Below are positions 1-62,002 of a stretch of DNA of 64,000 bases, piece after piece (the first letter of the stretch is position 1; every line of letters begins with the position of its first letter). Both the position numbers and the translations under genes were made by a program. Origin of the DNA: Haliclystus octoradiatus. Its lineage: Eukaryota > Cnidaria > Staurozoa > Stauromedusae > Haliclystidae. The stretch covers positions 13,016,538 to 13,080,537 of the forward strand of contig OU744446.1 in assembly GCA_916610825.1 (NCBI GenBank), given 5' to 3'. The notes beneath the pieces were generated by a model. The model was not told the origin of the DNA. It saw nothing but the letters and a program-made list of their open reading frames with translations, and made no database searches.

Positions 1-329
1 AACATCATCTGGATGTTGATCTTTCTTTGGCTCCTTTGCTACAGCTTTTCCCTTAGTTGGCTTCTTCCCTTTGTATGCTTTTTGGGAAGGTTGTCCAGAC
101 TCCTTTTTGACAAGGTCAACATGTTCTTTTCCTTTTCCGATTGGCTTTTTCTTCGTGTCAACCTTCACGGTCATAGGGCTATCCTTAGGTTTATCTTTTT
201 GAGGTATGTTTTTCCCTTTTTTTGGTTTCTCTTTGGATATCTTTTTCAATGGCTCGTCAGGTTGACTTTTAGATGGTGATGACGGCTGCACAAGCTCTCC
301 AACAGAGGGCTTAGCTAATGCCTGCTTTT
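1..329 (-). other. Window-edge part of the giant exon, K/P-rich
   Basis: About 110 residues rich in Lys, Pro and Glu (K-G-K-K-P, K-K-P-I-G-K-G-K) continue the second repeat region in degenerate form. No stop or splice donor is evident before base 1, so the exon continues outside the window. Confidence 0.75.
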
Positions 330-3300
330 CAACTGTCAAAGTGACAGGTTTTTCATCAGTGGGTTCATCTGACACTGGTTCAGTCTTTCCTCGCTCAGAT
401 GGTTCGCATGTCTTTGTTTCATCATCAGGAGTTGGTTCCAAGATGGTCTCTGGCACACTCTCTTCGAATACAACAGGAACATCAGCTACAATAACAGGCT
501 CGAGTTCATCTTCGGAAATCTGCTTTTGATTGGGAAAGTTCTTTTCAATAGGCTGGCTCTTCTTTTCTTCATTCTCGTCTGGCACTAAATATTCATCAAT
601 AGATCCTACATCAACATGTAAAACTCCTTGAGGTATATACTCAACATCCTCAGATTTCGTAGGCTCTATTGAAATTACAGTGGGTGCAGATTTGACCTTT
701 TCCTCAGAGGGAGCTATTTCAATCTTCTTCACTTCAACGTTAAATGTGAAGCTGTCATCATCTGGCTTCTTATCACTTTGTTCCGGTTCATCTGGCTTCT
801 TATCACTTTGTTCCGGTTCATCTGGCTTCTTATCACTTTGTTCCGGTTCATCTGGCATATCTTTTCCTTTCTTTGGCTTCTTTCCCTTTGGTGTTTTCTT
901 TGATGATTTTTCTGGTTCCTTTGTTTGTTTGGCACTAGATTTAACAGGCTCCTTTGCTTTACTCTTAGGTGATGTTGGCTTGTCAACTTTCGGTTCCTCT
1001 GACTCTTTCTTTGGCTTTTTCTTTGATTTCGTCTTAGAAGGCTGTTCAGGTTTACTTTCAGAAGGTGACAATGCCTTCATGATATCATCAACAGAAGGCG
1101 TAGAAGATATTGTCTGCGGTTCAATTGTCAAAGTGACAGGTTTGTCATCAGTGGGTTCATCTGACACTGGCTCAGTCTTTCCTCGCTCAGATGGTTCGCA
1201 TGTCTTTGTTTCATCAACAGGAGTTGGTTCTAAGATGGTTTCTGGCACACTCTCTTCGAATACGACAGGAACATCAGCTACAATAACAGGTTCAAGTTCA
1301 TTTTCGAAAATCTGCTTTTGTTTGGGCAAGTTCTTTTCAATAGGCTGGCTTTTCTTTTCTTCATTCTCGTCTGGCACTAAATATTCATCAATAGATCCTA
1401 CATCAACATGTAAAACTCCATGAGGTATATACTCAACATCCTCAGATTTCGTAGGCTCTTTTGAAATTACAGCGGGTGCAGATTTGACCTCTTCCTCAGA
1501 GGGAGCTATTTCAATCTTCTTCACTTCAACGTTAAATGTGAAGCTGTCATCATCTGGCTTCTTATCACTTTTCTCCGGTTCATCTGGCATATCTTTTCCT
1601 TTCTTTGGCTTCTTTCCCTTTGGTGTTTTCTTTGATGATTTTTCTGGTTCCTTCTTTGTTTGCTTGGCACCAAATTTAACAGGCTCTTTTACATTTCTCT
1701 TAGGTGATGTTGGCTCGTCAACTTTCGGTTCCTCTGACCCTTTCTTTGGCTTTTTCTTCGATTTCGTCTTAGAAGGCTGTTCAGGTTTACTTTCAGAAGG
1801 TGACAATGCTTTTACAGTATCATCAACAGAAGGCGTAGAAGATATTGTCTGCGGTTCAATTGTCAAAGTGACAGGTTTGTCATCAGTGGGTTCATCTGAC
1901 ACTGGTTCAGTCTTTCCTTGTGCAGATGGTTCGCATGTCTTTGTTTCATCAACAGGAGTTGGTTCTAAGATGGATTCTGGCACACTCTCTTCGAATACGA
2001 CAGGAACATCAGCTAAAATAACAGGCTCGAGTTCATCTTCGGAAATCTGCTTTTGTTTGGGCAAGTTCTTTTCAATAGGCTGGCTCTTCTTTTCTTCATT
2101 CTCGTCTGGCACTAAATATTCATCAATAGATCCTACATCAACATGTAAAACTCCTTGAGGTATATACTCAACATCCTCAGATTTCGTAGGCTCTTTTGAA
2201 ATTACAGCGGGTGCAGATTTGACCTCTTCCTCAGAGGGAGCTATTTCAATCTTCTTCACTTCAACGTTAAATGTGAAGCTGTCATCATCTGGCTTCTTAT
2301 CACTTTTCTCCGGTTCATCTGGCATATCTTTTCCTTTCTTTGGCTTCTTTCCCTTTGGTGTTTTCTTTGCTGATTTTTCTGTTTCCTTCTTTGTTTGCTT
2401 GGCACTAGATTTAACAGGCTCTTTTGCATTACTCTTAGGTGATGTTGGTTCATCTGACTTGGGCTCATCTTTCGTCGAAATTGGTTTACTAGACGCAGGC
2501 TCTTTTTCACTAGGTTCCTCTGCTGGAGATGGTTCTGGTGTAGTTTCTGGTTTTCGTTCTACAACTGGCACAGGAGCATCAGCCATTACAACTGGATCAA
2601 GTTGTCCCTTTGGTTTTTCTTTTTTGGGTTCCTCTGCTCCTTTCTTTGGCTTTTTCTTTGATTTCTTCTTAGAAGGCTGTTCAGGTTTACTTTCAGAAGG
2701 CGACAATGCTTTCACAGAATCGTCAACAGAAGGCGTAGAAGATATTGTTTGTGGTTCAATTGTCAAAGTAACAGGTTTGTCATCAGTGGGCTCATCTGAC
2801 TTGGGCTCATCTTTCGTCGAAATTGGTATACTAAACTCAGGCTCTTTTTCACAAGGCTCTTCTGCTGGAGATGCTTCTGGTGTAGTTTCTGGTATACTTT
2901 CTACAACCGGCACAGGAGCATCAGCTACTACAATCGGTTCGAGCTGTTCTTTAGGTTCATCCTTTTGGGGGGCATCCTTCCGTTTTTTTAGTATCTTTTT
3001 CTTCGATTTCGTCTTAGAAGGCTGTTCAGGTTTACTTTCCGAAGGTGACAATGCTTTCACAGAATCGTCAACAGAAGGAGTAGAAGATATTGTCTGTGGT
3101 TCAATTGTCAAAGTGACAGGTTTGTCATCAGTGGGCTCATCTTTCGCAGAAATTGGTATACTAGACTCAGGCTCTTTTTCACTAGGCTCCTCTGCTGGAG
3201 ATGGTTCTGGTGTAGTTTCTGGTTTTCGTTCTACAACTGGCACAGGAGCATCAGCCATTACAACTGGATCAAGTTGTCCCTTTGGTTCTTCTTTTTTGGG

Positions 3301-6300
3301 TTCCTCTGCTCCTTTCTTTGGCTTTTTCTTTGATTTCTTCTTAGAAGGATGTTCAGGTTTACTTTCCGAAGGTGACAATGCTTTCACAGAATCGTCAACA
3401 GAAGGAGTAGAAGATATTGTCTGTGGTTCAATTGTCAAAGTGACAGGTTTGTCATCAGTGGGCTCATCTTTCGCAGAAATTGGTATACTAGACTCAGGCT
3501 CTTTTTCACTAGGCTCCTCTGCTGGAGATGGTTCTGGTGTAGTTTCTGGTTTTCGTTCTACAACTGGCACAGGAGCATCAGCCATTACAACTGGATCAAG
3601 TTGTCCCTTTGGTTCTTCTTTTTTGGGTTCCTCTGCTCCTTTCTTTGGCTTTTTCTTTGATTTCTTCTTAGAAGGATGTTCAGGTTTACTTTCCGAAGGT
3701 GACAATGCTTTCACAGTATCGTCAACAGAGGGCGTAGAAGATATTGTCTGTGGTTCAATTGTCAAAGTAACAGGTTTGTCATCAGTGGGCTCATCTGACT
3801 TGGGCTCATCTTTCGTCGAAATTGGTATACTAAACTCAGGCTCTTTTTCACAAGGCTCTTCTGCTGGAGATGCTTCTGGTGTAGTTTCTGGTATACTTTC
3901 TACAACCGGCACAGGAGCATCAGCTACTACAATCGGTTCGAGCTGTTCTTTAGGTTCATCCTTTTTGGGGGCATCCTTCCGTTTTTTTAGTAGCTTTTTC
4001 TTCAATTTCTTCTTAGAAGGCTGTTCAGGTTTACTTTCCGAAGGTGACAATGCCTTCACCGTATCATCAACAGAGGGCGTAGAAGATACTGTCTGTGGTT
4101 CAATTGTCAAAGTGACAGGTTTGTCATCAGCAGATTCTGCATCTGGTTCGGCTTTCTTCTCTTTTGGTTTAATATTTTCTGGCCGTTCAGAGTTGGTACC
4201 TTTGTTAGGTTCAATTCCAGACTCTGTTGGAATTTCATTTTTCAGAAATTGGTTTGGCTTAGCACTGTCTAATGGGCTATGTGTTTGTTCCCAGCTACCT
4301 GTTAATGAAGCTATTGGCTCTTTAGAACTCTGATCTATGGTATTTGGCGTATAGATAATCTTACGATGTACAATTCTTCTTGTGTGGACATCTTTCCTCT
4401 TCCTGATAATTTTCTTCTTGATATTACCTTGCTCGTCCTTAACTTCCTCAAATGAGTCTGTAAATTCCCCACTTTTAATAAGAGAGGAAGGTTCAACAAC
4501 CACTTCACTACTTCCATCTTGCGCTAGAACCTGTCGCATAACTGGAGAATTTTCAACTGGAATTTCAACAATTTCTTCAATAGGTTCTTCGGATGATGTT
4601 TTATCTGAGTTGGAATCTTTTAGCTTACGGCGTTTCACAATATCATGCTTTGTTACAGTTGAGCGAATTTCTTTTGTTTCTTGCCTATTATCTTCAGGAT
4701 TTTCCTTTGTACTAATGGTGAGAGATTCTTCGACTTTCAAAGATGATTTAAGTGGCTGATGTTGGTCTTCTCTTTCTGAAATCCTGTATGTTGTTTCGGG
4801 GGTATAATGCAAAACACGCCTTGGTACAGCCATGTTGCTATCATCTGGATCTTCATCACGTTCGGTTTCAGTAACGTGTCGCTCTAACTCCACTTCTTCG
4901 CCATCTTGGAAAACAACTACCTTCTTAACAACTACAGTCTTAATCGTCATGTACACTTTTCTGTACACATAAGTTTTTGTTATTGGGATAGATGGCTCTA
5001 CGAAGTCTTCTTCATGTGACGATAAGAGTGGAATGTAAGGTGATACTGACTCATATTCATCTAACAATGTTTCTGTGCCATCAGGTTGACGAATAACACG
5101 CTCAACAATACGCCTTTCAACATCTTGAGCATCTGGAGTAGATTCATCCTTAGGAATTCGCACCACTTCACATGGTGGTTCTTCTTGGCTCTCTTCGTTA
5201 ACAATTTCTTCACCATCTTCATTGTCGACTGTTGATCTGATGACAGTACGACGAGTAACAACAGGCAATGATTTACGTACAACTGTTCTGAAAGAAGTAC
5301 CAGTTTTAACAACAGACATGCCTTCAGGTTCCTGGGTTTCAACAGGAACAAGAGTTGCGTTAAATTGATCAGCAATACCATCTACACTTTCTGGATATTG
5401 TTCTACGAGACACAGCTTGTATTCAACAGGTGAAACTTTCAAATCAACATCGTCAACTGTTCGAAGATTTACTTTCTTTGTTTCTTTCTCGACACGCACT
5501 ACAACATGGACAGAATCAGAAGCACCACTACCTTCTTCAACAACATCAGGGGAAAATTCTGACAAAGATGACTCTAAAGGTGTCACATCAAATTGTTCAT
5601 TGCTATCTAGAGAATTTACCAAAGAAGTAGGCAACGCAACAGGATCAATATACTCTTTTGAATCAGAAATATCCGTCCTGAGAACTTCTTCTTTGTCGTC
5701 TTCAATCCTTAACCGTCGAGTAATAATTCTTTCCCTAACAACACATACATTTTCATCTCCAGGCAATAAAGCTGACTTCATAGGGTCAACTGGAAAAACA
5801 TTCTCAGATTGGCTGACTAATTTCTCTTCACCCTTTCTGTCTACCTTTAGAACACGAACAATACGCCTTTCAACAAAAAAAGGATCAGATGCTGGAACAC
5901 CATCAATAGGTCTTGGCTGATCGTCTTCTGGCACGCTCTCCACAGTGCCAACGTCCATGGGGACAGGAATGTCTTCTTCCACTGGCTCCTCGACCTCTTC
6001 CACCTTCTCTGTGCCGTCGGGCAACACGATAATCCTCTTGATGGTCCTTCTGGTGACAGTGCGCACAGTTCGGCGGATGATCTTGCCGTCCTGCATGGTG
6101 ACACCGTCTTCTGGCTCCTCTGGAGCAGGAGTAGGTTCACCAACGACAGTACGGTGTACTTGACGACTGGTCACCACTTCTTGCTCAGGCAAGCTTTCGG
6201 CGACAGGCTCTTGAGTTGGTGCAAAGAGTTCCTCGATTGGTTCATCAACGTCTGACTTGGGTTCTTCCACGCTCTCCTCGACGCCTTGCTCTTCTCCTTG

Positions 6301-9300
6301 AGGGGTGTAGATAACCTTCCTGTACACCTTTCTCCTTGTCACGACAGGCACAGGTCGGCGCACAACTCTCCTCGTCACAACTCCCTGTACGTCTTTCACT
6401 TCTTCCACTTGTGGCGTCGACTCTACAGGCATCTCGTACTGTGGCTGCTCAATGACTTCCTCCTCGCCGTCAGCCTTGCGGATGATGCGCCTCACAATGG
6501 TGATGCTGGTAGGTTCTACCGGTTCGTCAACGGTGTCCTCCACTGGGCCTTCACTGCTGCCATCAGGCAACTGCACCACTTTGCGGATAACACGGCGTTG
6601 AGTGGTCACTTGTTGTTTTCGAACCACAGTGCGGTAGACCTCTCCATGTTTGGTCTCCTCCTCGACTTCTGGCTCCGATTCTGTGGTGAGAGAAACCTCT
6701 AGCGGGCTAACAAGCTCGGGCTCTTCGACCACAGTCTCTTTGCCAGTTTCGTCTTTGACCACTCTCTTGACCATGCGCCTGCTGACTGTCGGTGAGGCTT
6801 CTTGTTTCTCGCCTGACTCCTCGATACTACTCTCTAGGTCCTCCTCTTTGCCGCTTGGGTGAACAACGCTGCGTCTGATCACTGTTCTCTTGCTAGTCAC
6901 CATAACTGGACGTCTAACAACAGTGCGCAGGATCACGCCTCCTGTATCCTTCTCCTCTTCAATTTGTTCAGGCAGTTGTTCCTCAGGAGTCATCTCCACA
7001 GGAACGATAGTCTCTGACTCGTCGATCAGTTGCTCTTGTCCGTCTGGCTGTCGCACAACACGTCTCACAAGAGTCCTCTCCACAGCTCTTGGCATGTCGA
7101 CGGCAACAACCTCGCGGTGCACCTGTCTACGAGTCACCTCCTCTGGCTCTCTCTCGTAACGTTGGACAGTGCGGTGGACAACACGGGTTGGCTGATCGTC
7201 TTCTGGCACGCTCTCCACAGTGCCAACGTCCATGGGGACAGGAATGTCTTCTTCCACTGGCTCCTCGACCTCTTCCACCTTCTCTGTGCCGTCGGGCAAC
7301 ACGATAATCCTCTTGATGGTCCTTCTGGTGACAGTGCGCACAGTTCGGCGGATGATCTTGCCGTCCTGCATGGTGACACCGTCTTCTGGCTCCTCTGGAG
7401 CAGGAGTAGGTTCACCAACGACAGTACGGTGTACTTGACGACTGGTCACCACTTCTTGCTCAGGCAAGCTTTCGGCGACAGGCTCTTGAGTTGGTGCAAA
7501 GAGTTCCTCGATTGGTTCATCAACGTCTGACTTGGGTTCTTCCACGCTCTCCTCAACGCCTTGCTCTTCTCCTTGAGGGGTGTAGATAACCTTCCTGTAC
7601 ACCTTTCTCCTTGTCACGACAGGCACAGGTCGGCGCACAACTCTCCTCGTCACAACTCCCTGTACGTCTTTCACTTCTTCCACTTGTGGCGTCGACTCTA
7701 CAGGCATCTCGTACTGTGGCTGCTCAATGACTTCCTCCTCGCCGTCAGCCTTGCGGATGATGCGCCTCACAATGGTGATGCTGGTAGGTTCTACCGGTTC
7801 GTCAACGGTGTCCTCCACTGGGCCTTCACTGCTGCCATCAGGCAACTGCACCACTTTGCGGATAACACGGCGTTGAGTGGTCACTTGTTGTTTTCGAACC
7901 ACAGTGCGGTAGACCTCTCCATGTTTGGTCTCCTCCTCGACTTCTGGCTCCGATTCTGTGGTGAGAGAAACCTCTAGCGGGCTAACAAGCTCGGGCTCTT
8001 CGACCACAGTCTCTTTGCCAGTTTCGTCTTTGACCACTCTCTTGACCATGCGCCTGCTGACTGTCGGTGAGGCTTCTTGTTTCTCGCCTGACTCCTCGAT
8101 ACTACTCTCTAGGTCCTCCTCTTTGCCGCTTGGGTGAACAACGCTGCGTCTGATCACTGTTCTCTTGCTAGTCACCATAACTGGACGTCTAACAACAGTG
8201 CGCAGGATCACGCCTCCTGTATCCTTCTCCTCTTCAATTTGTTCAGGCAGTTGTTCCTCAGGAGTCATCTCCACAGGAACGATAGTCTCTGACTCGTCGA
8301 TCAGTTGCTCTTGTCCGTCTGGCTGTCGCACAACACGTCTCACAAGAGTCCTCTCCACAGCTCTTGGCATGTCGACGGCAACAACCTCGCGGTGCACCTG
8401 TCTACGAGTCACCTCCTCTGGCTCTCTCTCGTAACGTTGGACAGTGCGGTGGACAACACGGGTTGGCTGATCGTCTTCTGGCACGCTCTCCACAGTGCCA
8501 ACGTCCATGGGGACAGGAATGTCTTCTTCCACTGGCTCCTCGACCTCTTCCACCTTCTCTGTGCCGTCGGGCAACACGATAATCCTCTTGATGGTCCTTC
8601 TGGTGACAGTGCGCACAGTTCGGCGGATGATCTTGCCGTCCTGCATGGTGACACCGTCTTCTGGCTCCTCTGGAGCAGGAGTAGGTTCACCAACGACAGT
8701 ACGGTGTACTTGACGACTGGTCACCACTTCTTGCTCAGGCAAGCTTTCGGCGACAGGCTCTTGAGTTGGTGCAAAGAGTTCCTCGATTGGTTCATCAACG
8801 TCTGACTTGGGTTCTTCCACGCTCTCCTCGACGCCTTGCTCTTCTCCTTGAGGGGTGTAGATAACCTTCCTGTACACCTTTCTCCTTGTCACGACAGGCA
8901 CAGGTCGGCGCACAACTCTCCTCGTCACAACTCCCTGTACGTCTTTCACTTCTTCCACTTGTGGCGTCGACTCTACAGGCATCTCGTACTGTGGCTGCTC
9001 AATGACTTCCTCCTCGCCGTCAGCCTTGCGGATGATGCGCCTCACAATGGTGATGCTGGTAGGTTCTACCGGTTCGTCAACGGTGTCCTCCACTGGGCCT
9101 TCACTGCTGCCATCAGGCAACTGCACCACTTTGCGGATAACACGGCGTTGAGTGGTCACTTGTTGTTTTCGAACCACAGTGCGGTAGACCTCTCCATGTT
9201 TGGTCTCCTCCTCGACTTCTGGCTCCGATTCTGTGGTGAGAGAAACCTCTAGCGGGCTAACAAGCTCGGGCTCTTCGACCACAGTCTCTTTGCCAGTTTC

Positions 9301-39300: not shown

Positions 39301-42300
39301 GTCTGACTTGGGTTCTTCCACGCTCTCCTCGACGCCTTGCTCTTCTCCTTGAGGGGTGTAGATAACCTTCCTGTACACCTTTCTCCTTGTCACGACAGGC
39401 ACAGGTCGGCGCACAACTCTCCTCGTCACAACTCCCTGTACGTCTTTCACTTCTTCCACTTGTGGCGTCGACTCTACAGGCATCTCGTACTGTGGCTGCT
39501 TAATGACTTCCTCCTCGCCGTCAGCCTTGCGGATGATGCGCCTCACAATGGTGATGCTGGTAGGTTCTACCGGTTCGTCAACGGTGTCCTCCACTGGGCC
39601 TTCACTGCTGCCATCAGGCAACTGCACCACTTTGCGGATAACACGGCGTTGAGTGGTCACTTGTTGTTTTCGAACCACAGTGCGGTAGACCTCTCCATGT
39701 TTGGTCTCCTCCTCGACTTCTGGCTCCGATTCTGTGGTGAGAGAAACCTCTAGCGGGCTAACAAGCTCGGGCTCTTCGACCACAGTCTCTTTGCCAGTTT
39801 CGTCTTTGACCACTCTCTTGATCATGCGCCTGCTGACTGTCGGTGAGGCTTCTTGTTTCTCGCCTGACTCCTCGATACTACTCTCTAGGTCCTCCTCTTT
39901 GCCGCTTGGGTGAACAACGCTGCGTCTGATCACTGTTCTCTTGCTAGTCACCATAACTGGACGTCTAACAACAGTGCGCAGGATCACGCCTCCTGTATCC
40001 TTCTCCTCTTCAATTTGTTCAGGCAGTTGTTCCTCAGGAGTCATCTCCACAGGAACGATAGTCTCTGACTCGTCGATCAGTTGCTCTTGTCCGTCTGGCT
40101 GTCGCACAACACGTCTCACAAGAGTCCTCTCCACAGCTCTTGGCATGTCGACGGCAACAACCTCGCGGTGCACCTGTCTACGAGTCACCTCCTCTGGCTC
40201 TCTCTCGTAACGTTGGACAGTGCGGTGGACAACACGGGTTGGCTGATCGTCTTCTGGCACGCTCTCCACAGTGCCAACGTCCATGGGGACAGGAATGTCT
40301 TCTTCCACTGGCTCCTCGACCTCTTCCACCTTCTCTGTGCCGTCGGGCAACACGATAATCCTCTTGATGGTCCTTCTGGTGACAGTGCGCACAGTTCGGC
40401 GGATGATCTTGCCGTCCTGCATGGTGACACCGTCTTCTGGCTCCTCTGGAGCAGGAGTAGGTTCACCAACGACAGTACGGTGTACTTGACGACTGGTCAC
40501 CACTTCTTGCTCAGGCAAGCTTTCGGCGACAGGCTCTTGAGTTGGTGCAAAGAGTTCCTCGATTGGTTCATCAACGTCTGACTTGGGTTCTTCCACGCTC
40601 TCCTCAACGCCTTGCTCTTCTCCTTGAGGGGTGTAGATAACCTTCCTGTACACCTTTCTCCTTGTCACGACAGGCACAGGTCGGCGCACAACTCTCCTCG
40701 TCACAACTCCCTGTACGTCTTTCACTTCTTCCACTTGTGGCGTCGACTCTACAGGCATCTCGTACTGTGGCTGCTCAATGACTTCCTCCTCGCCGTCAGC
40801 CTTGCGGATGATGCGCCTCACAATGGTGATGCTGGTAGGTTCTACCGGTTCGTCAACGGTGTCCTCCACTGGGCCTTCACTGCTGCCATCAGGCAACTGC
40901 ACCACTTTGCGGATAACACGGCGTTGAGTGGTCACTTGTTGTTTTCGAACCACAGTGCGGTAGACCTCTCCATGTTTGGTCTCCTCCTCGACTTCTGGCT
41001 CCGATTCTGTGGTGAGAGAAACCTCTAGCGGGCTAACAAGCTCGGGCTCTTCGACCACAGTCTCTTTGCCAGTTTCGTCTTTGACCACTCTCTTGACCAT
41101 GCGCCTGCTGACTGTCGGTGAGGCTTCTTGTTTCTCGCCTGACTCCTCGATACTACTCTCTAGGTCCTCCTCTTTGCCGCTTGGGTGAACAACGCTGCGT
41201 CTGATCACTGTTCTCTTGCTAGTCACCATAACTGGACGTCTAACAACAGTGCGCAGGATCACGCCTCCTGTATCCTTCTCCTCTTCAATTTGTTCAGGCA
41301 GTTGTTCCTCAGGAGTCATCTCCACAGGAACGATAGTCTCTGACTCGTCGATCAGTTGCTCTTGTCCGTCTGGCTGTCGCACAACACGTCTCACAAGAGT
41401 CCTCTCCACAGCTCTTGGCATGTCGACGGCAACAACCTCGCGGTGCACCTGTCTACGAGTCACCTCCTCTGGCTCTCTCTCGTAACGTTGGACAGTGCGG
41501 TGGACAACACGGGTTGGCTGATCGTCTTCTGGCACGCTCTCCACAGTGCCAACGTCCATGGGGACAGGAATGTCTTCTTCCACTGGCTCCTCGACCTCTT
41601 CCACCTTCTCTGTGCCGTCGGGCAACACGATAATCCTCTTGATGGTCCTTCTGGTGACAGTGCGCACAGTTCGGCGGATGATCTTGCCGTCCTGCATGGT
41701 GACACCGTCTTCTGGCTCCTCTGGAGCAGGAGTAGGTTCACCAACGACAGTACGGTGTACTTGACGACTGGTCACCACTTCTTGCTCAGGCAAGCTTTCG
41801 GCGACAGGCTCTTGAGTTGGTGCAAAGAGTTCCTCGATTGGTTCATCAACGTCTGACTTGGGTTCTTCCACGCTCTCCTCGACGCCTTGCTCTTCTCCTT
41901 GAGGGGTGTAGATAACCTTCCTGTACACCTTTCTCCTTGTCACGACAGGCACAGGTCGGCGCACAACTCTCCTCGTCACAACTCCCTGTACGTCTTTCAC
42001 TTCTTCCACTCGTGGCGTCGACTCTACAGGCATCTCGTACTGTGGCTGCTCAATGACTTCCTCCTCGCCGTCAGCCTTGCGGATGATGCGCCTCACAATG
42101 GTGATGCTGGTAGGTTCTACCGGTTCGTCAACGGTGTCCTCCACTGGGCCTTCACTGCTGCCATCAGGCAACTGCACCACTTTGCGGATAACACGGCGTT
42201 GAGTGGTCACTTGTTGTTTTCGAACCACAGTGCGGTAGACCTCTCCATGTTTGGTCTCCTCCTCGACTTCTGGCTCCGATTCTGTGGTGAGAGAAACCTC

Positions 42301-45300
42301 TAGCGGGCTAACAAGCTCGGGCTCTTCGACCACAGTCTCTTTGCCAGTTTCGTCTTTGACCACTCTCTTGATCATGCGCCTGCTGACTGTCGGTGAGGCT
42401 TCTTGTTTCTCGCCTGACTCCTCGATACTACTCTCTAGGTCCTCCTCTTTGCCGCTTGGGTGAACAACGCTGCGTCTGATCACTGTTCTCTTGCTAGTCA
42501 CCATAACTGGACGTCTAACAACAGTGCGCAGGATCACGCCTCCTGTATCCTTCTCCTCTTCAATTTGTTCAGGCAGTTGTTCCTCAGGAGTCATCTCCAC
42601 AGGAACGATAGTCTCTGACTCGTCGATCAGTTGCTCTTGTCCGTCTGGCTGTCGCACAACACGTCTCACAAGAGTCCTCTCCACAGCTCTTGGCATGTCG
42701 ACGGCAACAACCTCGCGGTGCACCTGTCTACGAGTCACCTCCTCTGGCTCTCTCTCGTAACGTTGGACAGTGCGGTGGACAACACGGGTTGGCTGATCGT
42801 CTTCTGGCACGCTCTCCACAGTGCCAACGTCCATGGGGACAGGAATGTCTTCTTCCACTGGCTCCTCGACCTCTTCCACCTTCTCTGTGCCGTCGGGCAA
42901 CACGATAATCCTCTTGATGGTCCTTCTGGTGACAGTGCGCACAGTTCGGCGGATGATCTTGCCGTCCTGCATGGTGACACCGTCTTCTGGCTCCTCTGGA
43001 GCAGGAGTAGGTTCACCAACGACAGTACGGTGTACTTGACGACTGGTCACCACTTCTTGCTCAGGCAAGCTTTCGGCGACAGGCTCTTGAGTTGGTGCAA
43101 AGAGTTCCTCGATTGGTTCATCAACGTCTGACTTGGGTTCTTCCACGCTCTCCTCGACGCCTTGCTCTTCTCCTTGAGGGGTGTAGATAACCTTCCTGTA
43201 CACCTTTCTCCTTGTCACGACAGGCACAGGTCGGCGCACAACTCTCCTCGTCACAACTCCCTGTACGTCTTTCACTTCTTCCACTTGTGGCGTCGACTCT
43301 ACAGGCATCTCGTACTGTGGCTGCTCAATGACTTCCTCCTCGCCGTCAGCCTTGCGGATGATGCGCCTCACAATGGTGATGCTGGTAGGTTCTACCGGTT
43401 CGTCAACGGTGTCCTCCACTGGGCCTTCACTGCTGCCATCAGGCAACTGCACCACTTTGCGGATAACACGGCGTTGAGTGGTCACTTGTTGTTTTCGAAC
43501 CACAGTGCGGTAGACCTCTCCATGTTTGGTCTCCTCTTCGACTTCTGGCTCCGATTCTGTGGTGAGAGAAACCTCTAGCGGGCTAACAAGGTCGGGCTCT
43601 TCGACCACAGTCTCTTTGCCAGTTTCGTCTTTGACCACTCTCTTGACCATGCGCCTGCTGACTGTCGGTGAGGCTTCTTGTTTCTCGCCTGACTCCTCGA
43701 TACTACTCTCTAGGTCCTCCTCTTTGCCGCTTGGGTGAACAACGCTGCGTCTGATCACTGTTCTCTTGCTAGTCACCATAACTGGACGTCTAACAACAGT
43801 GCGCAGGATCACGCCTCCTGTATCCTTCTCCTCTTCAATTTGTTCAGGCAGTTGTTCCTCAGGAGTCATCTCCACAGGAACGATAGTCTCTGACTCGTCG
43901 ATCAGTTGCTCTTGTCCGTCTGGCTGTCGCACAACACGTCTCACAAGAGTCCTCTCCACAGCTCTTGGCATGTCGACGGCAACAACCTCGCGGTGCACCT
44001 GTCTACGAGTCACCTCCTCTGGCTCTCTCTCGTAACGTTGGACAGTGCGGTGGACAACACGGGTTGGCTGATCGTCTTCTGGCACGCTCTCCACAGTGCC
44101 AACGTCCATGGGGACAGGAATGTCTTCTTCCACTGGCTCCTCGACCTCTTCCACCTTCTCTGTGCCGTCGGGCAACACGATAATCCTCTTGATGGTCCTT
44201 CTGGTGACAGTGCGCACAGTTCGGCGGATGATCTTGCCGTCCTGCATGGTGACACCGTCTTCTGGCTCCTCTGGAGCAGGAGTAGGTTCACCAACGACAG
44301 TACGGTGTACTTGACGACTGGTCACCACTTCTTGCTCAGGCAAGCTTTCGGCGACAGGCTCTTGAGTTGGTGCAAAGAGTTCCTCGATTGGTTCATCAAC
44401 GTCTGACTTGGTTTCTTCCACGCTCTCCTCGACGCCTTGCTCTTCTCCTTGAGGGGTGTAGATAACCTTCCTGTACACCTTTCTCCTTGTCACGACAGGC
44501 ACAGGTCGGCGCACAACTCTCCTCGTCACAACTCCCTGTACGTCTTTCACTTCTTCCACTTGTGGCGTCGACTCTACAGGCATCTCGTACTGTGGCTGCT
44601 CAATGACTTCCTCCTCGCCGTCAGCCTTGCGGATGATGCGCCTCACAATGGTGATGCTGGTAGGTTCTACCGGTTCGTCAACGGTGTCCTCCACTGGGCC
44701 TTCACTGCTGCCATCAGGCAACTGCACCACTTTGCGGATAACACGGCGTTGAGTGGTCACTTGTTGTTTTCGAACCACAGTGCGGTAGACCTCTCCATGT
44801 TTGGTCTCCTCCTCGACTTCTGGCTCCGATTCTGTGGTGAGAGAAACCTCTAGCGGGCTAACAAGCTCGGGCTCTTCGACCACAGTCTCTTTGCCAGTTT
44901 CGTCTTTGACCACTCTCTTGACCATGCGCCTGCTGACTGTCGGTGAGGCTTCTTGTTTCTCGCCTGACTCCTCGATACTACTCTCTAGGTCCTCCTCTTT
45001 GCCGCTTGGGTGAACAACGCTGCGTCTGATCACTGTTCTCTTGCTAGTCACCATAACTGGACGTCTAACAACAGTGCGCAGGATCACGCCTCCTGTATCC
45101 TTCTCCTCTTCAATTTGTTCAGGCAGTTGTTCCTCAGGAGTCATCTCCACAGGAACGATAGTCTCTGACTCGTCGATCAGTTGCTCTTGTCCGTCTGGCT
45201 GTCGCACAACACGTCTCACAAGAGTCCTCTCCACAGCTCTTGGCATGTCGACGGCAACAACCTCGCGGTGCACCTGTCTACGAGTCACCTCCTCTGGCTC

Positions 45301-48300
45301 TCTCTCGTAACGTTGGACAGTGCGGTGGACAACACGGGTTGGCTGATCGTCTTCTGGCACGCTCTCCACAGTGCCAACGTCCATGGGGACAGGAATGTCT
45401 TCTTCCACTGGCTCCTCGACCTCTTCCACCTTCTCTGTGCCGTCGGGCAACACGATAATCCTCTTGATGGTCCTTCTGGTGACAGTGCGCACAGTTCGGC
45501 GGATGATCTTGCCGTCCTGCATGGTGACACCGTCTTCTGGCTCCTCTGGAGCAGGAGTAGGTTCACCAACGACAGTACGGTGTACTTGACGACTGGTCAC
45601 CACTTCTTGCTCAGGCAAGCTTTCGGCGACAGGCTCTTGAGTTGGTGCAAAGAGTTCCTCGATTGGTTCATCAACGTCTGACTTGGGTTCTTCCACGCTC
45701 TCCTCGACGCCTTGCTCTTCTCCTTGAGGGGTGTAGATAACCTTCCTGTACACCTTTCTCCTTGTCACGACAGGCACAGGTCGGCGCACAACTCTCCTCG
45801 TCACAACTCCCTGTACGTCTTTCACTTCTTCCACTTGTGGCGTCGACTCTACAGGCATCTCGTACTGTGGCTGCTCAATGACTTCCTCCTCGCCGTCAGC
45901 CTTGCGGATGATGCGCCTCACAATGGTGATGCTGGTAGGTTCTACCGGTTCGTCAACGGTGTCCTCCACTGGGCCTTCACTGCTGCCATCAGGCAACTGC
46001 ACCACTTTGCGGATAACACGGCGTTGAGTGGTCACTTGTTGTTTTCGAACCACAGTGCGGTAGACCTCTCCATGTTTGGTCTCCTCCTCGACTTCTGGCT
46101 CCGATTCTGTGGTGAGAGAAACCTCTAGCGGGCTAACAAGCTCGGGCTCTTCGACCACAGTCTCTTTGCCAGTTTCGTCTTTGACCACTCTCTTGACCAT
46201 GCGCCTGCTGACTGTCGGTGAGGCTTCTTGTTTCTCGCCTGACTCCTCGATACTACTCTCTAGGTCCTCCTCTTTGCCGCTTGGGTGAACAACGCTGCGT
46301 CTGATCACTGTTCTCTTGCTAGTCACCATAACTGGACGTCTAACAACAGTGCGCAGGATCACGCCTCCTGTATCCTTCTCCTCTTCAATTTGTTCAGGCA
46401 GTTGTTCCTCAGGAGTCATCTCCACAGGAACGATAGTCTCTGACTCGTCGATCAGTTGCTCTTGTCCGTCTGGCTGTCGCACAACACGTCTCACAAGAGT
46501 CCTCTCCACAGCTCTTGGCATGTCGACGGCAACAACCTCGCGGTGCACCTGTCTACGAGTCACCTCCTCTGGCTCTCTCTCGTAACGTTGGACAGTGCGG
46601 TGGACAACACGGGTTGGCTGATCGTCTTCTGGCACGCTCTCCACAGTGCCAACGTCCATGGGGACAGGAATGTCTTCTTCCACTGGCTCCTCGACCTCTT
46701 CCACCTTCTCTGTGCCGTCGGGCAACACGATAATCCTCTTGATGGTCCTTCTGGTGACAGTGCGCACAGTTCGGCGGATGATCTTGCCGTCCTGCATGGT
46801 GACACCGTCTTCTGGCTCCTCTGGAGCAGGAGTAGGTTCACCAACGACAGTACGGTGTACTTGACGACTGGTCACCACTTCTTGCTCAGGCAAGCTTTCG
46901 GCGACAGGCTCTTGAGTTGGTGCAAAGAGTTCCTCGATTGGTTCATCAACGTCTGACTTGGGTTCTTCCACGCTCTCCTCGACGCCTTGCTCTTCTCCTT
47001 GAGGGGTGTAGATAACCTTCCTGTACACCTTTCTCCTTGTCACGACAGGCACAGGTCGGCGCACAACTCTCCTCGTCACAACTCCCTGTACGTCTTTCAC
47101 TTCTTCCACTTGTGGCGTCGACTCTACAGGCATCTCGTACTGTGGCTGCTCAATGACTTCCTCCTCGCCGTCAGCCTTGCGGATGATGCGCCTCACAATG
47201 GTGATGCTGGTAGGTTCTACCGGTTCGTCAACGGTGTCCTCCACTGGGCCTTCACTGCTGCCATCAGGCAACTGCACCACTTTGCGGATAACACGGCGTT
47301 GAGTGGTCACTTGTTGTTTTCGAACCACAGTGCGGTAGACCTCTCCATGTTTGGTCTCCTCCTCGACTTCTGGCTCCGATTCTGTGGTGAGAGAAACCTC
47401 TAGCGGGCTAACAAGCTCGGGCTCTTCGACCACAGTCTCTTTGCCAGTTTCGTCTTTGACCACTCTCTTGACCATGCGCCTGCTGACTGTCGGTGAGGCT
47501 TCTTGTTTCTCGCCTGATTCCTCGATACTACTCTCTAGGTCCTCCTCTTTGCCGCTTGGGTGAACAACGCTGCGTCTGATCACTGTTCTCTTGCTAGTCA
47601 CCATAACTGGACGTCTAACAACAGTGCGCAGGATCACGCCTCCTGTATCCTTCTCCTCTTCAATTTGTTCAGGCAGTTGTTCCTCAGGAGTCATCTCCAC
47701 AGGAACGATAGTCTCTGACTCGTCGATCAGTTGCTCTTGTCCGTCTGGCTGTCGCACAACACGTCTCACAAGAGTCCTCTCCACAGCTCTTGGCATGTCG
47801 ACGGCAACAACCTCGCGGTGCACCTGTCTACGAGTCACCTCCTCTGGCTCTCTCTCGTAACGTTGGACAGTGCGGTGGACAACACGGGTTGGCTGATCGT
47901 CTTCTGGCACGCTCTCCACAGTGCCAACGTCCATGGGGACAGGAATGTCTTCTTCCACTGGCTCCTCGACCTCTTCCACCTTCTCTGTGCCGTCGGGCAA
48001 CACGATAATCCTCTTAATGGTCCTTCTGGTGACAGTGCGCACAGTTCGGCGGATGATCTTGCCGTCCTGCATGGTGACACTGTCTTCTGGCTCCTCTGGA
48101 GCAGGAGTAGGTTCACCAACGACAGTACGGTGTACTTGACGACTGGTCACCCCTTCTTGCTGTTGATGTTGTTCTTCTGGTAAACATTCTACCTCATCAA
48201 CATCAACAGGAACAGATATGTCTTCTTCTATCGGTTCTGCATCGTCTACTTCCACAACCTTCTCTGTGCCATCTTCCATTCTAATCACTCTTTTGATTCT

Positions 48301-51015
48301 TCTTTTTGTAATGGTGCGGATTGTACGGTGAATTTTCTTGTCCTGCTGTTTATCAGCATGGGGGGAAAACTGATCTTCAGGTGTTATTTCTTCTGTTGAA
48401 TCTTCAAATGTTTTCCTGCCCCCCTTCTCAAATATTATTTTCCTTACAATTTTTCGTTTTGTGATCACAGGGATAATCTTTGTAATTGTACGCCGTGTTG
48501 GATGGCCTTGATCATCTGTCTCCTCGTCAACTGTCTCTTGAACCTCCTGTGAGGTATTTTCTGCCTCAACTGGATGTAGAATTATCCTTTCCTTGACATT
48601 TTCTGAGAAGTCATTTGAATTTATTAAAGTATCTTGAGCATAACTTGTTGTTGTAATGTTAGCAATTCTTCGTATAACTCGACTAATTAAACCTTCGTCA
48701 CTGCTTTCTTCAGATATTACAGTTTCTGAATTTTCGAAGTTTGTTGATGCTTCAAGAGGAGATAGACCTTTTACACTTATACCAGCTGCAGATAAGGATG
48801 AAGTTAACACTCCATCTCCTTCATCCTCGTCATAAACAGAAGACTCAATGCTACGTTCAATTTCTTGCTCTGTGCCATCAGGATGCTGCCGCACAGTAAT
48901 GTAAATTGTGCATTTCTTTGTGACCGCTAAAGATTTTTGAAAACGTCTTCTGATCGTATTACCTTCATTATCAATTTCTTCTTCTTCTGATATGGACCCA
49001 TCATCTATTTGATATTTGCTCAAGTTTTCATCAGCCGGAATCAATGTTTCAGAAGAGTCAAGAAGAGTTTCTTCCCCAGAAGGAGTTCTAGTGACACGAG
49101 TAACAATGTAACGGTGCACAGGTTTTGGTGTTAAACTTCTTGCAACTGCCCAATACCTAACATCTCTAGTTGAAGGAATGTTTTGCTGCTTACCGTCAGG
49201 ACTAACAATAGTCTTACTGATTTCTTTACGGACTGTTCTAAGCACGGTAGATGTAGTTGTTGTCCGTGTAATAATGTTACCATGAACATCAATATAGATG
49301 TGTTGTAATGAAGGATCCATATTCAATTGTGATATTTGAGTTGGTCTGATGGTCAAAACATTATTTCCACTTATACCTGGTAATTGGATTTGAAGAACAC
49401 GCCGTGAAGGTATATCTATACCAACTGGTTCTTCAACTACATGACTGGTTTCCTTTTCAACACCATTCTTATCAATTTCATATGTTACTATAACTGTGCG
49501 AACCGTTCTAATTGGCAAATCAAGAGTATTCACAAGATGTGTCATTTGTCTTTCTTTATACTGTTTGGGAAACTTGACAGGTGAAAAGTCTAACATGTTT
49601 GAGACTGGGGTAGGGTAATTAGATTTTACTTGACAGACACTTTCACTGCCATCAGGCTTTCTACGTATCTGTTGTACAGTTTTCACACTACTTTCTTCCT
49701 TTGGAAAATAAATCACATCATTTACTTCTTTTGGTTTACTCTCGCGCTGCAACAATAATGTTGACATTACATTGTATGTTTTTTTTCTTAATTCCTTGTC
49801 ACCTTTTTTTCTTCTAATTAACGAGCCTGAGGCTGATGCAATATTTCCTGTGTATGACATTCTCAATGGAATAATATGCTCCACCTTTACAAGACCCCCT
49901 TCTTCATCATCTTCTTCATGATCAACAACCTGACACAACAGATGAGGTTGAAGCATGTTGTCATCAATAGCTGGTGCCTTACTACTAATAACTTTTCGTT
50001 CAGTTTCTTCGGATTCTACTCCTTTATCATTTTCATAAACACGTCGCTCTACAACAAAGTCAACTTCACCAAATACTCCAACTTGTTTTTTAACACTTGT
50101 CGATTGACCATTTTGATCTGAGCTACCAAAATGGCTTTCCCTTGGTGGTTTGATCAAACCTTCCTTCATTGGAACGATAAGCTCTACATGACTCAAGGGC
50201 TCAATTCGACCAGACCCAAGCCTTTTTTGTTTGATTATTACGTACCTTTCAACGGGTACTGGGCTATCTCCAAGTACTCCGGAACTTCCGTCTTTTGTTT
50301 TGACTAATGGTGAGTTGTTGTCTTCTCTTCTATCTCCAGAATCTGTATCATCAGTTGACATAGTGATAACAGTTGATGATGTTACACTATCTTTAACATT
50401 TACAATCTTTGTCGTTTTAGGTTCAGCATCCTTGACAGGGACATATCTAGGTTTGCCTCCCTCTATAATATTATCAAACGATTCATCAAAAGAAATTGGT
50501 ACAGATTCAGCTACATCCATTGCTTCGACGGAAACTATTTTCTCATGAACAGGAGCAGATTCAATCACAACAAACTTGTCATCAGCATCTGGAATTGCTT
50601 GTTGGGTAAGTGTCTTTTTAGATACGAGTGTTGTTGTAAATTGAAATGGCTCCGTACCAACAGGAGTAGATGAAACAGCTCCATTACGGCTTAACTTTCC
50701 AGCTGAGAATGGGCTAAAGGATAACTTGGATCCAGGGGATACTGGTTCAAGGATATCAAGTGGACTAACATATGTCTTTCTCACGACTGTTGTTCTAAAA
50801 TTTGTTACTGGGGATGTTGGTTCAAGAGTGAATTTCATTGGCTCTTCTGGTGTTGTCAATACAAAAACTTGTGACTCAGGAACCACAGCTTCTGGTTCCA
50901 TTGTCAAAACATTTGGGGGTATTTCTACACTCGGCATTTTGCTTCTCAATGGTACATCGGTTGGGCTTTGGACTAATCTCCTTTTGCGAGTGTCATGAAG
51001 TAAGGTTGAATTAAC
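1..51015 (-). CDS. Giant coding exon (exon L), partial: V/R/E/P-rich repeat protein segment, at least 17,005 codons
   Basis: One minus-strand reading frame is open from a splice acceptor at 51016-51017 to the window edge, with no stop. The first exon codon is GTT at 51015-51013 and the last codon in the window ends at base 1 (51015/3 = 17005). The phase agrees with the exon ending at 55230. I translated the low-coordinate part by hand and found it open throughout. Layout in protein order: unique segment, 33-copy array of 425 residues, diverged repeats, then K/E/P-rich repeats. No enzyme domain, membrane segment or catalytic motif is visible; the composition is rich in Val, Arg/Lys, Glu and Pro. 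At roughly 110 Da per residue the part seen would be near 1.9 MDa. The frame is interrupted only by the N gap at 18536-19035 and by a compensating -1/+1 indel pair at 17690 and 16893. The function is unknown; a structural or elastic cytoskeletal role is inferred from the linked spectrin rod. The C terminus lies outside the window. Confidence 0.88.
330..4130 (-). repeat. Second coding repeat family: K/E/P-rich modules with two spacer types
   Basis: A shared block (D-E-P-T-D-D-K-P-V-T-L-T-I-E-P-Q-T, then S-V-D-D-x-V-K-A-L-S-P-S-E-S-K-P-E-x-P-S and a Lys-rich run) occurs seven times plus one degenerate copy. Anchors (plus-strand caattgtcaa) are at 4101, 3756, 3429, 3102, 2757, 1857 and 1122, with a degenerate one at 330. 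Spacings are 345, 327, 327, 345, 900, 735 and 792 bp, all multiples of three. Short spacers contain V-A-D-A-P-V-P-V-V-E. Long spacers contain K-K-T-P-K-G-K-K-P-K-K-G-K-D-M and a hydrophobic S-F-T-F-N-V-E-V segment. Copies are far more diverged than the 1275-bp array. The protein is predicted disordered by composition; the function is unknown. Confidence 0.88.
761..850 (-). repeat. In-frame 30-bp minisatellite, three copies
   Basis: Plus-strand tctggcttcttatcactttg followed by ttccggttca occurs three times in perfect tandem, encoding a decapeptide of the form E-P-E-Q-S-D-K-K-P-D. Paralogous positions near 1553 and 2288 have one slightly different copy, so this is a local, recent expansion. Confidence 0.9.
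4131..5916 (-). other. Diverged V/R/E-rich segment after the array
   Basis: The frame passes straight out of the array (E-D-D-Q-P then R-P-I-D-G-V-P) into about 595 residues of diverged modules. Three stretches align with parts of the 425-residue unit. About 5212-5315 (R-T-V-V-R-K then V-V-T-R-R-T-V-I-R) matches modules 1 and 4. About 5040-5135 (V-E-R-R-I-V-E-R-V-I-R-Q-P-D-G-T-E) matches module 3. About 4339-4450 (E-E-V-K-D-E-Q-G then H-R-K-I-I-Y-T-P) matches the module 7 to module 1 junction. GC is about 37-42%. This is the old repeat field on the C side of the amplified unit. Confidence 0.8.
16893..17690 (-). other. Compensating 1-nt indel pair (frame off for about 800 bp)
   Basis: Compared with every other copy, one base (a, plus strand) is missing between 17689 and 17690, and one extra a lies in the run at 16893-16896. 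Between them the giant frame is shifted, giving a premature stop at 17647 if read literally. After 16893 the original frame returns, and unit spacing 16486 to 17761 is still 1275. Both lie on the contig side ending at the gap, so consensus error is likelier than a real double frameshift, but it must be checked. Confidence 0.85.
18536..19035. other. Assembly gap of exactly 500 N inside the array
   Basis: The gap interrupts one unit. Landmarks on either side (17761 and 20212) are 2451 bp apart, where two units would be 2550 bp. The true missing length is therefore 599 bp, or 599 plus any number of 1275-bp units, if the period holds. The 99-bp shortfall is 33 codons, so the placeholder happens to keep the frame. 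Confidence 0.95.
48161..48510 (-). repeat. Diverged repeat copy bordering the array on its N side
   Basis: The translation follows the order of array modules 1 and 2. A T-R-R-T-I-T-K and V-I-T-K-R-K-I-V-R-K-I-I segment matches unit residues 4-25, and I-T-K-R-R-I-K-R-V-I then M-E-D-G-T-E-K-V matches residues 110-129. A stretch E-E-D-I-S-V-P-V-D-V parallels the array's E-E-D-I-P-V-P-M-D-V. DNA identity to the unit is low, but protein order and spacing are kept, so this is an old relative rather than a recent copy. Confidence 0.75.
48161..51015 (-). other. N-side non-array segment of the giant exon (about 950 residues)
   Basis: Unique sequence begins with V-N-S-T-L-L-H-D and a basic K-R-R stretch. 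The first 450 residues or so are Ser/Thr/Pro/Val-rich with acidic patches and no recognisable fold. From about 49.7 kb downwards, degenerate versions of the array module appear, each with a basic Val/Ile/Arg run and then a turn such as K-P-D-G-S-E, S-P-D-G-K, T-P-S-G-E-E or H-P-D-G-T-E and an acidic tail. GC is about 37-42% in sampled lines, lower than the array. It looks like the old, diverged edge of the repeat field. Confidence 0.8.
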
Positions 51016-51035
51016 CTGAAGTAACAAGAATAATA
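51016..51035 (-). promoter_or_regulatory. 3' splice site of the giant exon
   Basis: On the minus strand a T-rich tract ending in ATTCTTGTTACTTCAG stands directly before GTTAATTCAACC. The AG lies at 51017-51016. Upstream of it the frame happens to stay open to an ATG at 51078, so a naive ORF starts in the intron. The phase-0 junction matches the phase-0 donor at 55229. Confidence 0.85.
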
Positions 51036-55229: not shown

Positions 55230-55463
55230 CTCTTGCTCTGGCTCTTGCTTTTCCACCTCCTCGGGTGTTCTTAAACGAACTCGTCCAAGCATATACGGAG
55301 ATTTCTGCAACGTAACATTTAAACCAGTCCATCCTTTTTCCATTTTATTGAGCTGCTGGCGCAAAGGACTACGGTCCACATCATCAGTGGCCATAAAATC
55401 CTTCGCGGTCTGATAGACAATGTAGTACACCCGTTCAAAATTTGTAATTTCAATATGAAGCTC
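55230..55463 (-). CDS. Exon K: last spectrin-repeat exon and linker into the giant exon
   Basis: 234 nt, 78 codons, phase 0 at both ends. Acceptor CTCTTTCATAG before GAGCTTCATATT; donor CAAGAG|GTATCA. It encodes a helix B-like segment, then a helix C motif (L-R-Q-Q-L-N-K-M-E-K-G-W-T-G-L-N), then a Pro/Glu/Lys-rich linker ending E-K-Q-E-P-E-Q-E. The linker's acidic, low-complexity character prepares the change from helical rod to extended repeat region. Joining to GTT of exon L is in frame, which is the evidence that rod and array are one protein. Confidence 0.87.
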
Positions 55464-55780
55464 CTATGAAAGAGGGACATACATGATATTGAATCAAGAA
55501 CATTAATAACAAAATAAAATAATGTAGTAATCAATCTACAACAATGCATTCTATTGTTGAAACAATTGCACACCAATAACTCAACAACCAAATGAAAACG
55601 CATATATTTAAATAATTGAAAGAAAACCTTTATAGTTCAAGCACAAACTACTTGATGTGAACAAGGTAAAGTTAAACTTAGTCAACAATTTAAAGTCAGA
55701 TCTGTATACATAATGCCAATACAAATTGAAAATCATAATCAAATCAAAAATGTACTGCATACAATTGATGTAAGACTTAC
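55464..55780 (-). other. Intron J-K (317 bp)
   Basis: Donor ATCCAA|GTAAGTCTT and acceptor TTTCATAG. AT-rich; nothing else seen. Confidence 0.85.
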
Positions 55781-56095
55781 TTGGATATAGCGTTCAAATT
55801 CTTTCTTTTGCGGTCGTCTACGATTCATTTCTAAAACTTCTTGCTCTTTGTTTGTAACCCAAATTTGAAGTTGAGTAACGTCTTCTTCAAATTTGGTACG
55901 CAAAGCTTTCTCAAGAAAAGTTTGCCTGTGATTTGCAGCTTCACAAATCCTCTCCCAGCGTACCGATAGGTTATCAATTTGAGCTTGGACTTCAGGAGCA
56001 CCTGTTACTTGCGGTCGACCGTCAATTAGTTCTTTACCACAGTCAATGGTACGACCAATGTCTTGGATGCCTTCATTGAGATCTCTTTGAAACAA
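55781..56095 (-). CDS. Exon J: spectrin-repeat exon
   Basis: 315 nt, 105 codons, phase 0/0, the length of one spectrin repeat. Acceptor TGTTGTTTTCCATAG before TTGTTTCAAAGA; donor GTAAGT. Helix B is followed by helix C (I-D-N-L-S-V-R-W-E-R-I-C-E-A-A, the conserved Trp present) and the next helix A (V-T-Q-L-Q-I-W-V-T-N-K-E). A basic stretch N-R-R-R-P-Q-K-K lies near the end. The apparent TTG start of the open frame is simply the first codon after the splice. Confidence 0.9.
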
Positions 56096-61188: not shown

Positions 61189-62002
61189 CTGGAAATATGA
61201 AAGGAAAGCAAATTAATATCAATGTTACCATTACCTGGGTCATCAGTCATGAAATAAGAAGACAATTTAATGATGTCAAAACTAGACAAAAAACAATTAA
61301 GAAAAATATTGTTCTTTTAATCATTCATTTTTAATTTTCTGAATGTGAAGGGAACGAATAACTGAATGAAGTTTTTCACACAAAAAAGTGATATTAAATG
61401 AAATCATCTGTACTCTGTATCCATCCATTATTCCTTTTCAATTACTTAATGTTATAACAAATGACAGAAGATGTTAAACTTTCAACAAAATTAATCAAAA
61501 ATGTGTCAACAAAAACATGGAATATTGTATCACCTATTGAACATTTTTGTGATTTGCAACAATTAAGGTTAAATTTGAAACTAAAAACTCCATGCATCGA
61601 TAATTTAAAATTATGAATTAAAAATCCCATGACATTGTATCTTTGGGAAATGTGGAGGAAGTAATAGCCTAACTGATCTTAAAGTTGAATTCATCATTGA
61701 TACTACCATACCTTCTATTTTATTACTATTATTATTATTATTAGTGAAGGGGGAGGAGGTTGTAATTTCAGATTATGACACCTATATAAAGTCAATATCT
61801 TATTATCTTACATTAGCGGCTCCGAAAAAATAACATGCGTTCCAATTCATGCCTTTTCAAATTGGATTTTTCACAACTACTCTTTTGAGTTAATAGCACT
61901 TTGCTTGATATGGAACTTTGTTACATCGTATATGAATGTTGATACAGGACAGACTTCAACACATTACTGAAAAATTAATATTTAAGATTACAAATTTCTT
62001 AC
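61189..62002 (-). other. Intron C-D (814 bp)
   Basis: Donor ATAAGG|GTAAGA; acceptor ATATTTCCAG. Holds an (ATT)n run at 61722-61743. No gene seen. Confidence 0.82.
61722..61743. repeat. (ATT)n microsatellite
   Basis: A slightly interrupted att run within intron C-D. Confidence 0.85.

Follow-up and report, generated by a model that had tools for sequence, protein, structure and literature searches.

A probable giant coding exon with a nearly homogeneous tandem array in the spectraplakin gene of Haliclystus octoradiatus

The subject of this study is a 64,000-nucleotide stretch of chromosome 1 of the staurozoan Haliclystus octoradiatus (assembly GCA_916610825.1, contig OU744446.1, positions 13,016,538-13,080,537), referred to below as the window, in which a very long minus-strand reading frame had been predicted from the letters alone as a single coding exon. 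We consider it probable that this frame represents a single giant coding exon, belonging to the spectraplakin gene. Positions are those of the window, and negative numbers count into the flanking DNA of the same contig below base 1. The minus strand is free of stops from 51129 to 17650 (33,480 nt, including a run of 500 N) and again from 16899 to 1 (16,899 nt) in the same frame, which is identical on both sides of the 500-N gap. Measured from the splice acceptor at 51016/51015 to base 1 it comprises 51,015 nt or 17,005 codons, the frame and the count of the original prediction, and the gap and the cancelling pair of single-base indels that had been set aside there were likewise recovered. The acceptor (TATTATTCTTGTTACTTCAG/GTT), previously called good, scores 8.2 bits against a leave-one-out median of 7.0 bits for 34 putative acceptors of the gene. 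It had also been proposed to extend the sequence below base 1 in search of a stop or a donor; when this was done, the frame stayed open to a stop at -489, and a donor (CAG/GTAAGT, 13.1 bits) was found before that stop, with the last exon base at -455. As assembled, with the gap and the indel pair included, the exon measures 51,471 nt (17,157 codons, 50,971 nt of known bases), a length divisible by three with phase 0 at both ends, as in giant coding cassette exons.

The frame is thus bounded by an acceptor and a donor and has coding flanks on both sides of a tandem array, and chance does not explain these flanks. Under mononucleotide composition, the log10 probability of an open frame is -30.7 for the unique 5' part (2,868 nt) and -62.9 for the 3' part (6,369 nt), and the other five frames of these parts contain 25-292 stops each, while the sense frame contains none. 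For the array unit alone the value is -8.2. The length of the frame given in the original prediction does not count as independent evidence over about 42 kb, which consist of one 425-codon unit in about 33 copies; repetition of the unit adds no independent evidence for openness beyond one unit, a caution that applies to open-frame length in tandem arrays.

The host gene was assigned from its predicted domains. The order of CH-like domain, plakin domain, giant exon, spectrin rod, EF-hand-like region and GAS2 domain identifies it as the spectraplakin of H. octoradiatus, and by the order of the matches along the locus the giant exon follows the plakin domain and precedes the spectrin rod. Downstream, an open reading frame (ORF) carries a GAS2 domain (PF02187, E-value 2.7e-31), with MACF1 as the best match in the PDB (2.9e-25). 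Among seven downstream ORFs tested against Pfam, two pass the cut-off of PF00435 Spectrin (43 and 41.3 bits; 6.8e-11 and 2.4e-10), two have sub-threshold Spectrin matches, one is the GAS2 ORF and one is without a match. A greedy count gave 66 non-overlapping ORFs of at least 75 amino acids (aa) in this region, spurious ones included, many of them spectrin-like by eye, and a long spectrin-repeat rod follows the giant exon. In the expected place before the GAS2 domain, EF-hand_1 was matched below its cut-off (E 0.003), and the next ORF has no Pfam match. On the upstream side, all four PDB rows of the ORF at about 88.7 kb are plakins (plectin 3.8e-5 and 2.2e-4, BPAG1 3.3e-4, desmoplakin 0.068), with no Pfam plakin model matched, and the CH2-like fragment at about 96.2 kb gave weak PDB matches, 18 of 19 of them to CH proteins (best E 0.0073, MACF1 0.15), with no Pfam family matched. 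Spectrin matches up to an E of 1 were obtained for two of three upstream ORFs in one Pfam set and three of ten in the other, all below the cut-off, and the ORF at about 74.9 kb had no useful match.

Plakin repeats (PF00681) were not found up to an E of 1 in one array unit or in the flanks within the window; genome-wide the model gave no match, but this is a weak result, as 14 control genomes also gave none. Two other gene families were considered and rejected. A giant ankyrin exon was considered for its repeat style, but UPA_2 has its sole match on contig C2 and the flanking domains are those of a spectraplakin, and for nesprin/ANC-1 the Spectrin_SYNE1 matches are weak and below the cut-off and the GAS2 domain argues for a spectraplakin. 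A second strong GAS2 domain (83 bits) lies on contig C4 (13213902-13214093), with weaker matches on C1, C2 and C6, and the genome therefore contains at least one other GAS2-containing gene.

The exon is composed of a unique 5' part, the array, diverged module copies and a K/P-rich 3' part (Table 1). Each array unit contains about five diverged modules of about 60-98 aa, one of them weak (independent E-value, i-E, 2.9e-5), in which a strand rich in V and R, a PDG-like turn and a strand rich in E can be made out by eye. Diverged relatives of the module occur in frame in both flanks, those of the 5' part towards its 3' side (i-E 3e-7, 2e-6 and 1e-8). The unit is rich in V (18%), E (17%), R (10%) and P (9%), with P, E, V and K together at 48%. 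Searched against the genome, a 207-aa piece of the array matched at the giant-exon locus only (101 rows). No known fold was found for the 425-aa unit in Pfam (best E 0.19) or the PDB (best E 0.21), and NCBIfam gave no match up to an E of 0.1. Disorder predicted from charge and hydropathy was rejected as a criterion since it does not discriminate: it also placed a spectrin rod exon among the disordered sequences, and the 5' flank among the folded ones. The giant exon thus carries tandem coding repeats within one exon, as do coding exons with a variable number of tandem repeats (VNTR). The exon directly downstream (about -3588 to -1165) spans about 2.4 kb, of which some two-thirds is again coding tandem array (a 261-bp unit in 6.1 copies, 75% matches), and the two adjoining exons together hold three tandem expansions of differing divergence.

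Table 1. Coordinates of the features in the window.
Feature	Position	Strand	Evidence
Upstream spectrin-like exon	61993..62392	-	Spectrin_SYNE1 8.1e-5 and Spectrin 0.0023, both below cut-off; 1u4q alpha-spectrin E 0.001
Upstream spectrin-repeat exon	55743..56095	-	PF00435 E 1e-5, 26.4 bits (cut-off 29.9)
Exon next upstream of the giant exon (78 codons, phase 0), resembling spectrin by eye	55230..55463	-	Donor GAG/GTATCA, 1.7 bits
Acceptor site of the giant exon, TTACTTCAG/GTT	51016..51035	-	8.2 bits, matrix built on the gene's 34 putative acceptors
Unique 5' part, 956 codons	48148..51015	-	Open frame, log10 P -30.7
Tandem array, 1275-bp (425-aa) unit, about 33 copies as assembled including the gap	5915..48147	-	0.936 identity at lag 1275
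Consensus-identical array unit, query of the family and structure database searches	22648..23922	-	Unit alignment
500-N gap within the array, read as scaffolding placeholder	18536..19035	.	N run
Two cancelling single-base indels near the gap	16896..17690	-	Alignment to unit
Diverged module copies 3' of the array	4318..5914	-	Module matches, i-E 1.6e-12, 4.4e-5, 7.8e-6
Second tandem array, 5 copies, 327-bp K/P/E/S-rich unit	2450..4130	-	Tandem Repeats Finder, 88% matches
K/P-rich 3' part, running past the window to the donor after -455	1..4317	-	Open frame

The array is nearly perfectly homogeneous. The 30 full copies that were compared contain 23 distinct variants, and ten of them are equal to the consensus; this count leaves out the partial copies at both contig edges, the partial copy at the array end and the copy bearing the indels. 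The partial copy at the left contig edge has one variant. The array also differs from the rest of the gene in its GC content at fourfold degenerate sites (GC4), which is 0.49 and therefore more than double that of the other gene parts tested (5' flank 0.21, 3' module part 0.17, K/P-rich part 0.21, next exon 0.24, ten rod exons 0.24), with G and C both raised. This suggests GC-biased gene conversion during homogenisation, to which selection on codons is the alternative source.

The scaffolder SALSA2 writes fixed gaps of 500 N. The register across the gap is 99 bp off whole units, which fits a placeholder, and the gap is read as a scaffold join inside the array, so that the exact length of the exon is uncertain; by arithmetic, any whole number of missing units would keep the frame. 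With less than 2% mismatch, the contig ends overlap without gaps in one way only, over 676 bp with one mismatch, the variant 31 nt from the left contig edge; for the longer overlaps that keep the register, of 1951 and 3226 bp, the indel at 17690 must be ignored as well. If both contigs are right, the exon has a floor of about 47,745 nt and no ceiling. The published assembly jrHalOcto1.1 (33 scaffolds, 262 Mb, 18.3-kb mitochondrial genome) was produced with HiCanu and SALSA2 from HiFi DNA sheared to 12-20 kb, at 68-fold HiFi coverage and a quality value (QV) of 56.6, and the alternate haplotype was deposited as GCA_916610655.1 (PMC9975415). That the assembled length is substantially wrong, the real array being much shorter or much longer, is a serious possibility, not far short of an even chance. 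The 500-N join within the array of a SALSA2-scaffolded assembly, the presence of less than one variant per unit, the inability of 12-20 kb fragments to span 42 kb and the indel pair beside the gap all point in this direction, while the coverage and QV, the variants found in 17 of the 22 full units of the left contig (though in 3 of 8 on the right) and the 676-bp sole overlap, by which correct contigs imply no less than about 47.7 kb, speak for a length near that assembled. Copy numbers of exons of this type should be treated as fragile when they come from HiFi assemblies.

Splice sites were scored with matrices built from the gene's own putative sites (34 acceptors and 22 donors), which came from 67 candidate ORFs. 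The donors had been selected by the motif GTRAG, with a bias towards strong sites, and the acceptors by TAG and their pyrimidine content, C being admitted later. Sites scoring above the 10th percentile were counted as acceptor-like. The unit contains seven of them (5.5 per kb); introns have 10.4 per kb, the two exon flanks 12.2 and 9.1 and the next exon 3.9. The original prediction had suggested that scarce acceptors on a purine-rich coding strand may keep the exon from being spliced. The purine richness was confirmed (array 59.6% purine), and the acceptor density is indeed about half that of introns, but the seven sites are what shuffling the codon order (6.6 +/- 2.4) or synonymous recoding (7.0-7.7) gives: composition halves the acceptor density, and nothing beyond codon content removes acceptors, which leaves the suggestion weakly supported. 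The shortage of donors is more distinct: the unit has no donor-like site, whereas shuffles give 1.5 +/- 1.2 and recodings 1.9-2.1, and a best donor as low as that of the unit occurred in 4.3% of 300 shuffles. If one donor-free unit was amplified, a long exon could arise without selection for length. The adenosine content of the array is 28.5%, as against 36.1% in the unique 5' part and 34.1 and 38.0% in the two 3' segments, and the array therefore lies below the 33% adenosine of purine-rich giant cassette exons. GAAGAA occurs 2.35 times per kb in the unit (0.64 expected) and 4.7-5.6 times in the flanks (0.7-0.8 expected). By analogy with such cassettes, masking of the purine-rich exon by SAFB-type proteins is possible, even though the array is not adenosine-rich.

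From these data we infer that the exon is transcribed and that some transcripts at least would retain it undivided, joined in after the plakin domain and before the spectrin rod, at the position that in Shot and MACF1 is taken by the exon of their plakin-repeat region (PRR). Its insert would be very long and extended and would lengthen the linker from the actin or membrane end to the microtubule end. Unequal exchange and gene conversion within the exon would have expanded and homogenised the array, GC-biased conversion would have raised its GC, and the whole may have stayed a single exon because the amplified unit happens to be without usable donors and with few acceptors. Since the exon keeps the frame, it could be left out and may act as a regulated giant cassette.

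Several observations weigh against one giant coding exon of a spectraplakin. The exon directly downstream has no meaningful Pfam match, and a genome search for CH domains (PF00307, E up to 0.001) listed 31 places, none of them at this locus. The variants among the array copies, 16 nonsynonymous and 7 synonymous for 2924 and 901 opportunities, give no signal of purifying selection, which was rejected for the copies on this ground; the three pairs formed by three 78-aa blocks of the 3' flank, with 1 and 1, 0 and 5, and 1 and 6 synonymous and nonsynonymous differences, give no such signal either. Seven 40-aa blocks of the same flank gave 93 synonymous to 62 nonsynonymous differences, which is suggestive only, as they are summed over non-independent pairs. 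The indel pair breaks the frame as assembled: compared with the other copies there is one base fewer at 17690/17689 and one more at 16896, and the first would stop translation at about 17649. Between the two, the matching frame is open in the other register (16766-17716), and the pair is likely an error, since both indels lie at most 1.7 kb from the gap and none of the 30 compared full copies has an indel. Zero donors are not rare in random recodings of the unit (P 0.10-0.16), and the absence of donors is therefore suggestive only. The donor of the exon immediately upstream is weak, and by their scores an acceptor at 55145 and a donor at 55034 could delimit an extra 112-nt exon in between. Finally, the last 55 or so residues of the giant exon resemble by eye the first half of a spectrin repeat, whereas both the next exon, at its start, and the upstream exon resemble a second half; a plain skip would therefore join two second halves into a broken repeat, and skipping may need an internal acceptor.

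The flanks themselves bear on how the exon is spliced. Both unique flanks contain donor- and acceptor-like sites, and the 5' flank has 1.05 donor-like sites per kb compared with 0.24 in introns, so that the array could be spliced out. If splicing from the 5' to the 3' flank removed it from most or all mRNAs, as in an exitron, little or none of it would be translated. Candidate donors at 50246 (8.3 bits), 49194 (8.2), 49983 (7.3) and 48448 (7.0) and acceptors at 5331 (7.1), 2132, 1397 and 605 (7.3) flank the array, and its composition is unlike the rest of the gene. We nevertheless regard such removal as unlikely, given that the array with its 425 open codons per unit is in frame with both flanks, that the diverged module relatives there are also in frame and that these donors all score less than 10.8 bits, the median for the putative donors of the gene. 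For a first exon with its own promoter, the epidermal isoform of dystonin offers a parallel. It is quite unlikely that the giant exon in the same way opens the coding sequence of a separate transcript, unjoined to the upstream exons: the 1.7-bit upstream donor and the intervening intron of about 4.2 kb would fit this, but the good acceptor at 51016/51015 is in phase with the open frame, and the upstream exon could be joined to it in frame, in phase 0. A non-coding, satellite-like array that is open by chance would account for near-identical tandem DNA with divergent GC and a neutral-looking variant ratio. It is nonetheless highly improbable in view of flanks open over 9.2 kb (log10 P about -31 and -63), in-frame module relatives on both sides and splice sites at both exon ends.

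One giant exon, the preferred reading, is an extreme case of known kinds of giant exon and not a new kind. It is very much longer than the PRR exon of Shot. In titin, the PEVK region is a spring rich in P, E, V and K that is spread over many small exons; the present unit is likewise a P/E/V/K-rich insert in a giant cytoskeletal protein, but it is arginine-rich and lies in one exon. In Shot-PH the PRR is encoded by one spliced-in exon, exon 12 of shot-RH, and its role is called functionally unexplored (PMC9320987). The exon of H. octoradiatus shares with the PRR of Shot, MACF1 and dystonin the family and the position of a large exon between plakin domain and spectrin rod, which is alternative in Shot (PMC9320987), but carries a 425-aa array in place of plakin repeats, which were not found. 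Giant protein-coding cassette exons have been described as a class among cytoskeletal genes; those of ANK3, ANK2, MAP2, MAP4, NIN and CLIP1 are controlled by SAFB proteins, and the adenosine threshold is 33%, with MAPT as the sole exception (PMC10901741). The present exon resembles the ANK3 type in being a huge in-frame cytoskeletal exon with a purine-rich sense strand and GAAGAA above expectation, and differs in that only its flanks (34-38%) are biased to adenosine, the array being at 28.5%. ANC-1 of C. elegans, a nesprin orthologue, is also a giant cytoskeletal linker with near-identical tandem units, but has six of 903 residues, almost 100% conserved in nucleotides (PMC8139857), instead of about 33 of 425 in a spectraplakin. 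Among the mucins, whose VNTRs also form one coding exon, MUC12 is said in a 2026 preprint to hold the largest human exon, with predicted proteins of 4,677 to 23,080 aa (PMC13345508). These repeat-exon alleles do not bear out the rank among the largest coding exons anywhere that had been claimed for the present exon, which differs from mucins in belonging to a cytolinker inside the cell and in the near-perfect identity of its 1275-bp units. A search of open-licence papers returned no report of the giant exon among the matches listed.

If transcribed whole, the exon would be among the longest coding exons known to us, in a conserved cytoskeletal gene of a cnidarian, and would provide a test case for exon definition over 51 kb. 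We suggest, tentatively and with less than even confidence, that the whole array is translated into a spectraplakin of about 25,000-30,000 residues whose length varies between individuals as a coding VNTR; the estimate adds the 17,157 exon codons to ORF sums that include spurious ORFs and is very rough. At 0.36 nm per residue of an extended chain, the insert alone would reach about 6 micrometres when fully extended, and the protein would be a cytolinker with a heritable tether of variable length. An exon transcribed whole would also raise the question of what role the little-explored central region of spectraplakins has when it is lengthened without plakin repeats, and the array would be a candidate case of GC-biased homogenisation within coding sequence.

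Two observations were made elsewhere in the assembly. About 45-48 kb upstream of the window (C1, about 13,126,000-13,128,000) there are, by eye, reverse transcriptase-like ORF fragments of a non-LTR (long terminal repeat) retrotransposon. The mitochondrial contig C33 (18,316 bases) has cox1 opposite cox2, trnW, atp8 and atp6, all named by eye, an order that fits a medusozoan, and in its COX1, at positions that we take to be conserved, TGA reads as Trp and AGR as Arg.

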